64,000 nt of DNA from Rhizobium sp. NXC14 (GTDB lineage: Bacteria; Pseudomonadota; Alphaproteobacteria; Rhizobiales; Rhizobiaceae), in contig NZ_CP021030.1 in the NCBI RefSeq assembly GCF_002117485.1, positions 933,001-997,000 of the forward strand. Direction: 5' to 3'. A program made the position numbers and the translations under genes. Positions 19,008 through 62,822 of the stretch are shown one piece after another; position 1 is the stretch's first letter; each line of letters starts with the position of its first letter. A model generated the notes under the pieces. It ran no database searches, was not told the origin of the DNA, and saw nothing but the letters and a program-made list of their open reading frames with translations.

Positions 19008-19100
19008 GGCAAATTCCATAGCTGGCGTCGGCCCGTGCGGCCCCCTCATCCAACCCTTCGGGCCACCTTCTTGGATAAGAAAAATGTAGGATATTGATGC

Positions 19101-19257
19101 CTGCCGGGCGGGTGGCCGCCCGCCCGGCAGCTGGTTGTCGGATCGTCACCTTCTTAGCCGTTTTGGGCTGTGGGGAGCAGGATCGCAACCGGCTCTTCAT
19201 CTGGCCCGTGTGGTTGCAGGAACCTTGGGGTTCGTATCCAAGACAGGGACGACGAAG
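19101..19257 (+). ncRNA. Predicted IS110 bridge RNA (target- and donor-binding loops)
   Basis: Three consecutive structures are visible. A 5' hairpin (19101-19130) has a perfect 12-bp stem CTGCCGGGCGGG. The target loop is closed by 19129-19137 with 19186-19194, then GATC/GATC; its guides are CACCTTCT (19147-19154), identical to the left target 19064-19071, and GGGGAG (19172-19177), complementary to CTCCCC at 20218-20223, separated by an AGCC/GGCT hairpin. The donor loop is closed by 19195-19201 with 19251-19257; its guides are TGGTTGC (19211-19217), identical to the right end 20212-20218, and TATCCAAG (19235-19242), complementary to CTTGGATA at 19070-19077, separated by a GAACC/GGTTC hairpin. 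This is the guide layout of the IS621 bridge RNA. Transcription is inferred. Confidence 0.85.
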
Positions 19258-20208
19258 ATGACCGATAATAGCATGATCTGTGCCGGAATCGATGTCGGCA
19301 AAAGCCATCTCGACATTGCCCTCCATCCCGGTAAGGCAAGGCTGAGGGTCACGTACGACACCGCTGGCCTGAAGGCGCTTGACGCCTTTCTTCGAGAGCA
19401 TGACGTCAGCCGCATCGGCTTCGAAGCCTCCGGCGGCTATGAATGGCGGCTGCTGGCGCATCTGCGGGCCGGCAAGCGGCCGGCGGCGCGTCTGCAGCCG
19501 GCGCAGTTGCGCTTCTTTGCCAAGAGCCGGCTCAAGCGGGCCAAGAACGATCGGCTCGATGCCGTGCTGATTGCGCTCTTCACGGCAAGTCTGGAGCAGT
19601 TGCCGGCGCTGCCGGACGCACGCTTCGACAAGTTGGCCGCCGAACTGACCTATCTGGAACAGATCGAGCAGCAGATCGCGCTGGTCAAGACCTTTGCCGA
19701 GACCGCCTTGTCGGAGGCGATCAAACGCCGCCACCTGCGCGAGGTCGCCCGCCTCGAAACCTGCCGCAAGGCCCATCTGCTGCGGCTCGAAAAGACGGTT
19801 CGCGACGATTGCGACTTGGCGCAACGGCTCGATCTGCTGATCTCCATCAAGGGGATCGGGCTGCGCAGCGCCCTGTGCTTGATCATTCGGCTGCCCGAAC
19901 TCGGCCATGCCAGCCGCGCCGAGATCGCCGCCCTTGCCGGCGTCGCACCCTATGACGACGATAGCGGAAAGTATCATGGCAGACGCCGCATCCAGGGTGG
20001 TCGCGAACGCCTGCGAAAGAGCCTATTCATGTGCGCATTCACGGCAACCCGGCACAATCCGGATCTCGCCGCTTTCTACACGCGCTTGCGTCAGAACGGA
20101 AAGGAGCACCTGTGCGCCGTTATAGCCGTCGCCCGAAAACTCATCGTTCTCGCCAACACAATCCTCTTTCGAAAGACCGAATGGACGCCACAACACCGCA
20201 AGAATTAA
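19258..20208 (+). CDS. IS110-family transposase (DEDD recombinase)
   Basis: A 316-residue recombinase. The N-terminal RuvC-like domain carries the DEDD set: Asp12 (GIDVGK), Glu56 (FEASGGY), Asp98 and Asp101 (KNDRLDA). A coiled-coil-like middle follows (about residues 120-185), then the C-terminal IS116/IS110/IS902 domain with SIKGIGLRSA, LAGVAPYDDDSG (the expected nucleophilic Ser236) and GGRERLRKSLF. Residue spacing closely parallels IS621. It looks intact. ATG 19258 follows directly after the last paired base of the predicted donor loop, and the ribosome-binding region AGGGA lies within that structure, so RNA folding may limit transposase translation. Confidence 0.93.
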   Translation: MTDNSMICAGIDVGKSHLDIALHPGKARLRVTYDTAGLKALDAFLREHDVSRIGFEASGGYEWRLLAHLRAGKRPAARLQPAQLRFFAKSRLKRAKNDRLDAVLIALFTASLEQLPALPDARFDKLAAELTYLEQIEQQIALVKTFAETALSEAIKRRHLREVARLETCRKAHLLRLEKTVRDDCDLAQRLDLLISIKGIGLRSALCLIIRLPELGHASRAEIAALAGVAPYDDDSGKYHGRRRIQGGRERLRKSLFMCAFTATRHNPDLAAFYTRLRQNGKEHLCAVIAVARKLIVLANTILFRKTEWTPQHRKN

Positions 20209-20378
20209 ACATGGTTGCTCCCCGAGGGGAGAAGGGGGCGTGCCGCGAGGTCTCAATCCCCTCTTCTCCCAAGCGGGAGAAGGTGCCCGTAGGGCGGAAG
20301 AGGGGGGCCGCACGGCATGAGTTTCATGAGTTTCACTGTGGTTAACATTGGGGTAACGACATCAGGATAAGTCTAGCG

Positions 20379-62702: not shown

Positions 62703-62822
62703 ATGCCCCTCATCCGCCTGCCGGCACCTTCTCCCCGTAAACGGGGCGAAGGGACCATGCCGCGCCCTCTCGGTTCCCCGCGGGCCCCTCGCAGGGCACA
62801 TCCCCTCGCCCAGTGAGGGGCA
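62703..62822. repeat. RIME-like mosaic palindromic repeat, copy C (short form, inverted)
   Basis: About 120 bp, mostly the reverse complement of copies A and B, but lacking their roughly 40-bp GGGTCGAG...CTCGACCC segment. It contains CACCTTCTCCCC (62725-62736), which is exactly the target encoded by the IS110 bridge-RNA guides. Confidence 0.8.

Follow-up and report, generated by a model that had tools for sequence, protein, structure and literature searches.

What leads an IS110 element to its insertion sites, and does the long noncoding leader of its recombinase gene hold the answer? The locus that raises this question lies on the forward strand of a 64-kb stretch of the Rhizobium sp. NXC14 genome (the window, to which all positions refer unless a locus is named). 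We regard it as almost certain that the element is a complete rhizobial insertion sequence of the IS110 group, IS621-like, whose left end gives rise to a bridge RNA steering insertion into a palindromic repeat. The gene at 19258..20208 encodes a recombinase of 316 aa that carries both Pfam domains of the group, DEDD_Tnp_IS110 (PF01548) and Transposase_20 (PF02371), and scores 157.1 bits (cut-off, 140) against the NCBIfam model NF033542, named "IS110 family RNA-guided transposase." Residues 8-303 align to the IS621 structure 8wt6 with 64.5 bits, and the ISCro4 structure 9t56 aligns nearly as well. The IS621 alignment, together with family motifs, points to D12, E56, D98, D101, and S236 as candidate catalytic residues, in keeping with a DEDD recombinase that has the conserved C-terminal serine of IS110 proteins. 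The left noncoding end (19072..19257, 186 nt) contains the bridge RNA region and the right end (20209..20217) is only 9 nt long, both boundaries being set by eight copies with differing outer flanks; a long noncoding end 5' of the gene and a short right end make up the IS110-group layout. Rfam, at gathering thresholds, gave no match anywhere in the 64-kb window. Our covariance model R1 matches 19072-19260, the window being one of the eight sequences behind it. No sigma70-like promoter at the end junction was distinguishable from shuffles in nine elements, the E. coli consensus being used, from which rhizobial promoters may differ.

The NXC14 genome holds eight copies of the element, 98.5 to 100% identical in DNA, and one remnant. 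Six copies have an unbroken gene, and in two (L007 and L008/L009) it is broken into two reading frames. The covariance model, at an E value of ≤0.001, recovered the identical nine genome places, its scoring covering 150 of the 1,114 first-look candidates. All eight copies are preceded by CAyCTTCT and followed by CTCCCC, with a 2-bp CT core at both ends and identical guides; beyond these letters, the sequence differs from copy to copy. In the window, the element interrupts a palindromic repeat, the left half of which (CCCCCTCATCC...CACCTTCT) lies at 19041..19071 and the right half (CTCCCCGAGGGGAGAAGGGG) at 20218..20237, so that it is flanked by CACCTTCT on the left (left target, 19064-19071; CT core, 19070-19071) and by CTCCCC on the right (right target, 20218-20223; second CT core, 20218-20219). 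The same repeat surrounds all eight copies and is uninterrupted in relatives. The 12-mer target, CACCTTCTCCCC, is found 65 times in the genome, versus once for the reversed control, and between 59 and 100 times in each of four genomes of the same genus. This repeat, absent from the sequence-only reading of the locus, is what matters most for its interpretation; it is a candidate RIME1 (Rhizobium-specific intergenic mosaic element). A free exact target 12-mer within an intact repeat is present in the window itself (62725-62736), an open site for the element. In a remnant (L017, 1579-1872 of that locus, minus strand), the initial ~287 nt of the element are fused at a CT to the right target half, CTCCCC; the deletion may have been made by the recombinase, as the letters at its inner breakpoint, CACCG^CT, look like a pseudo-target.

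Related genomes were searched for the corresponding empty sites. The left flank of copy L006 led to 24 loci in relatives; the right flank is also present in 22, and none of these has the element in between. At this site, the repeat reads as an uninterrupted CACCTTCTCCCC in 7 of the 22 relatives and as CATCTTCTCCCC in 4, and in genome G332 both flanks align around a repeat with a single CT. For the window copy, relatives offered 12 loci with the same gene, of which 6 were read. Genome G359 carries the repeat uninterrupted and identical across the junction, with its left side aligned over 1.5 kb at 89 to 90% and its right side matched weakly, by short stretches (25 to 26 nt) about 1.35 kb further on. 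L122 and L123 have no repeat at this place, and L124 to L126 show other arrangements. At the site of copy L003, a clean empty site was seen in none of the 24 relatives compared.

The leader contains four short segments that match the flanks and the ends of the element, each at the position given by the sequence-only reading and each occurring once in 19078-19257. The left target guide, CACCTTCT (19147..19154), equals the left target at 19064-19071, and the right target guide, GGGGAG (19172..19177), is the reverse complement of CTCCCC at 20218-20223. On the donor side, TGGTTGC (19211..19217) equals 20212-20218, where the left donor TGGTTG (20212-20217) lies inside the right end, and TATCCAAG (19235..19242) is the reverse complement of CTTGGATA at 19070-19077; with the ends joined, the donor of the element would read TGGTTGCTTGGATA. 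The two target guides thus come first and the two donor guides second, the left one leading in each pair, which is the order of the IS621 bridge RNA, as had been claimed, with the target guides corresponding to the target flanks and the donor guides to the joined ends. The same reading had held chance matches to be very unlikely, and the controls agree: the ordered four-guide score is 29 of 29, compared with a mean of 20.0 and a maximum of 24 in 5,000 dinucleotide shuffles and a best score of 24 among 1,404 further tiles of 180 nt, taken from both strands of the window.

Among elements of at least 82% identity, the target guides are constant. All 22 leaders that were read without assuming the guide contain CACCTTCT and GGGGAG. 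Of 18 distinct left contexts, found with a search pattern that required the guide, 14 match it fully, 3 read CATCTTCT, and 1 reads TCCCTTCT, leaving 4 that mismatch an unchanged guide (3 by one letter and 1 by two). The right flanks listed for these elements all start with CTCCCC, and the copies that the right-flank pattern overlooks do so as well. Flanks that change under an unchanged guide had been named beforehand as the observation that would speak against the bridge RNA; the close family does so only mildly, in these 4 of 18 contexts, and the guides of diverged elements follow their flanks. Since neither the guide nor its target varies much in the close family, this family alone cannot separate recognition of the repeat by the protein from pairing by an RNA.

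The diverged elements allow this separation. Relatives were found at 33 to 97% identity. Counting the NXC14 genome itself, they occur in 23 of 297 genomes of the family (E ≤ 1e-40), 7 of 148 of the genus (E ≤ 1e-60), and, at E ≤ 1e-55, 3 of 397 of the order and 1 of 385 of the class; one contig scan gave 16 loci, 28 plasmid records matched (three were fetched), and one scan of viral contigs contained no relative. In these elements, the loop letters change along with the flanks: L067 has CCATGAG for the flank CTCATGG, L079 has CGTAG for CTACG, L038 and L039 have GGATGAG for CTCATCC, and L078 has CCGGCACC and GGAGAAG, with a core located 3 bp from that of the window element within the repeat. 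Over 23 elements, own flanks scored 306 of 368, compared with 278 for the best of 100,000 swaps. This test left out duplicates, the fragments L015 to L018, and five elements whose left boundary is missing or unset (L044, L048, L050, L053, and L061); it contained a faulty row (L045, a duplicated contig start) and a right flank shifted by hand by 2 nt (L078). Without that row and that shift, own flanks scored 291 of 352 over 22 elements (swap maximum, 263), the own flank being best or tied in 19 elements and another element's flank better in 3. In the nine elements of the clade, the score of 121 of 144 was equalled by 1 of 100,000 swaps. The right target alone gave a mean of 6.32 of 7 over 31 elements (swaps: mean, 5.32; maximum, 5.87), in a test that includes the five omitted elements, counts the near-copies L001/L021 and L072/L074/L075, and allows the match anywhere in the leader.

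The donor side behaves similarly. Elements ending in TGGTTG, ACAGAT, ACAGTCG, ACGGATA, or CCGTTG each have a copy of that end in their own second loop, and the donor guides of 11 distinct end pairs scored a mean of 13.18 of 16 (swaps: mean, 11.01; maximum, 12.82), or 13.08 over 12 pairs with the faulty L045 row (swap maximum, 12.5). Left ends were set by eye through end motifs, some being backed by several copies, and the best match fell outside the expected loop for L049 in the target test and for L039 in the donor test. Guides therefore covary with both targets and donors across relatives, as in an IS621-type system; for the flanks, this is the outcome that the proposed comparison of homologous copies had called for.

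The proposed RNA comprises a 5' hairpin of up to 12 bp with the loop TGGCCG (19101..19130), a target-binding loop (19130..19193) with a closing stem at 19130-19137/19186-19193 and an inner hairpin at 19156-19159/19166-19169, and a donor-binding loop (19194..19258) with an inner hairpin at 19220-19224/19229-19233. The donor closing stem, 19194-19201/19251-19258, has seven pairs and one mismatch, as first described, and takes in the A of the gene's ATG. The 12-bp hairpin (19101-19112/19119-19130) and the 9-bp target stem with one G-U pair (19129-19137/19186-19194) of the earlier description can both be drawn, but they share A19129 and G19130, and T19194 also belongs to the donor stem; therefore, the three helices cannot all form at full length simultaneously, a conflict that the earlier description does not mention. 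The unconstrained minimum free energy fold, only moderately better than that of shuffles (-78 kcal/mol; z, -2.07; equalled or bettered by 5 of 200), includes the 5' hairpin, at 11 bp, and the target stem. Folding, which had been suggested as a check, thus yields these two helices, but the left target guide is partly paired to the right one and the donor loop differs from that of the guide model.

Comparison of ten leaders, four of them near that of the window, provides a further view of the four proposed helices. They are paired in 93.2% of cells, which drops to 30 to 56% when helix partners are slid, and both partners are changed in 9 of 24 pairs, versus 2.7 in shuffles; a measure of further pair types was equalled by 41 of 500 shuffles. 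The target loop accounts for most of these changes (5 of 8 closing pairs and 3 of 4 inner-hairpin pairs), compared with 1 of 7 closing pairs and none of 5 inner-hairpin pairs in the donor loop, where pairs are mostly invariant. The two-loop secondary structure is thus conserved across the ten leaders, and the covariation of stems that had been looked for was found, chiefly in the target loop. Structural support is supplied by the target loop, through its stem and inner hairpin; that for the donor inner hairpin, whose near-invariant pairs are little tested by the comparison, is weak. Taken together, protein family, guide covariation, and stem covariation bear out the initial proposal of an IS110 bridge RNA that has one pair of guides for the target and another for the donor.

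Other explanations for these observations have to be weighed. The protein alone might recognize the repeat, with guide-like letters owing to shared ancestry or chance and involving no RNA pairing. The near constancy of guide and target in the close family is compatible with this explanation, but where targets differ between elements, the loop letters follow the flanks, on the target side as well as on the donor side, making it highly improbable. We find it harder still to credit that the leader serves chiefly as a 5' UTR regulating the transposase, acting through an sRNA or structural control as reported for ISPpu9, with any guide function lost or secondary, because the four matches and their covariation would be left unexplained. 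There is some basis for regulation: the donor stem (19251-19258) can close on the start codon, so the structure could control translation, and control by UTR and sRNA has been reported for ISPpu9 (PMC8450116). Such regulation may be true in addition to the guide function.

The near identity of the copies could also suggest that they arose from segmental duplication of one insertion instead of repeated guided insertion. Yet the outer flanks differ in each copy, the repeat alone being common to them; in named relatives, the same element sits at still other places; and orthologous empty sites exist for one copy and, in part, for the window copy. A duplication origin is accordingly very hard to sustain.

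The anatomy of the element, its boundaries, the empty sites, the matches of guides with flanks and ends, and the cross-element covariation are observations; that the left end is transcribed, that the protein binds the RNA, that a circle forms, and that strands are exchanged, we infer from IS621. By analogy with that element, the excised form would be a circle with joined ends, TGGTTG-CT-TGGATA, from which the left end would be transcribed into the bridge RNA. One loop of this RNA would pair with both strands of the intergenic repeat at CACCTT-CT-CCCC, and the other with the joined ends of the circular form. The recombinase would then grip both duplexes, and strand exchange at the CT core would let the circle enter the repeat.

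The same genome contains a second IS110 element (L010 to L014; five copies found), 34% identical to the first, which enters the same repeat at another bond, GCCC^CT^CATCC. Its target loop contains GGCCCCT and GGATGAG, and its donor loop ACAGAT and CATGCAAG. One copy of the repeat bears both elements (L013/L007), at two bonds. The bond of the second element, with variant left letters, is also that of L038, L039, and L049, and the S. meliloti element L078, 45% identical, has another address within the same kind of repeat, CCGGCAC^CT^TCTCCCC, two extra right-end bases making its exact bond less sure. Together with CACCTT^CT^CCCC of the window element, these addresses suggest that the rhizobial palindromic repeat family is probably a common landing strip, on which natural reprogramming has directed different IS110 bridge RNAs to three or more distinct CT bonds. 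If so, the shared repeat would offer a natural series for following the drift and sliding of bridge RNA guides.

Other relatives show further arrangements. In L040, the loop TGGATTCCT equals the left flank in 9 of 9 letters, and the left core is CT and the right one CC, as is also the case in L041, L043, and L059. An IS110 group at 33 to 34% identity (L048, L051, L054, L057, and L061) is located at the 3' foot of hairpins that, as judged by eye, resemble intrinsic terminators. The leaders of L048, L051, L054, and L057 have AAAAAAG in the loop, close to right flanks resembling CTTTTTT; a contig end truncates L048 in its left flank.

Bridge regions were also encountered without a transposase. 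A query with the bridge region matched 90 records in one search and 77 in another, 75 of the latter from Sinorhizobium. Solo regions are present in Sinorhizobium plasmids and in Rhizobium sullae (L076, 2501-2692; L077, 2501-2693; and L081 to L088); tblastn found no transposase in L076 and L077, and the annotation lists of the remaining fetched loci contain none. Of the ten fetched, six have plasmid-borne groES and/or groEL annotated upstream and three are unannotated, and one solo copy has lost its 5' hairpin. The possibility of an orphan bridge RNA in the Sinorhizobium plasmids, where the bridge region alone matches at 75%, was considered and set aside: pairwise identity is 0.72 to 0.90 in the solo region versus 0.85 to 0.98 in the immediate flanks and 0.40 to 0.72 farther downstream, so the region is not conserved above its immediate flanks and we take it as a fossil. 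Matches in draft genomes without a transposase lie mostly at contig ends and were likewise discarded. In genome G429, two matches without a transposase (L105 and L112) have scores similar to that of the fossil in Rhizobium sullae (107.3 bits).

The element joins a family that is already described. The high novelty first attributed to it is not supported, since IS110 bridge RNAs are in print, as are IS110 insertions in REP-like repeats, those of ISRm19 in Sinorhizobium among them (PMC11208160, PMC11187229, PMC1525189). Bridge RNAs have been reported as general in IS110 (PMC11208160). In the open-access papers since 2024 that our search covered, none among the matches listed unites IS110, bridge RNA, and Rhizobium. 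The element resembles IS621 of E. coli, as portrayed in PMC11208160, in its DEDD recombinase with a C-terminal serine, the long left end that contains its bridge RNA, the succession of 5' stem-loop, target loop, and donor loop, its CT core, its insertion into REP elements, and its left guides equal to the top strand and right guides pairing with it. It differs in a distant protein (the 64.5 bits to 8wt6), in its target and donor letters, and in a right target match that spans 6 nt, core included, whereas IS621 has a four-base RTG (PMC11208160). The seekRNAs of IS1111/IS110 elements (ISEc21) are also upstream noncoding RNAs matching both target strands, and natural reprogramming has been reported for them; what is described there is target matches and RNAs of 70 to 100 nt, whereas the window element has a longer two-loop region with donor guides, known from DNA (PMC11187229).

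The association of IS110 elements with REPs was reported in 2006, including ISRm19 of Sinorhizobium meliloti, likewise a rhizobial IS110 element, with four of four copies in REP sequences; it is presented there, in the passages concerning it, without an RNA guide (PMC1525189). L078 may be ISRm19. The two elements of NXC14 are also reminiscent of ISPpu9 and ISPpu10 of Pseudomonas putida, two different IS110 elements on one repeat family in one genome, except that the latter share one REP bond, while those of NXC14 use different bonds of one repeat (PMC1525189).

The window element is thus a well-supported further member of the IS621-type bridge RNA systems and leaves the picture of the family unchanged. 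It provides a compact candidate for a rhizobial bridge RNA recombinase (316 aa), with all four guides and the target readable, and its relatives at 43 to 83% identity, several of them with other targets, are material for genome engineering and for deriving the rules by which guides change in nature. The element further offers an RNA-guided account of the crowding of IS110 elements in REP-like repeats, the association printed in 2006 (PMC1525189).
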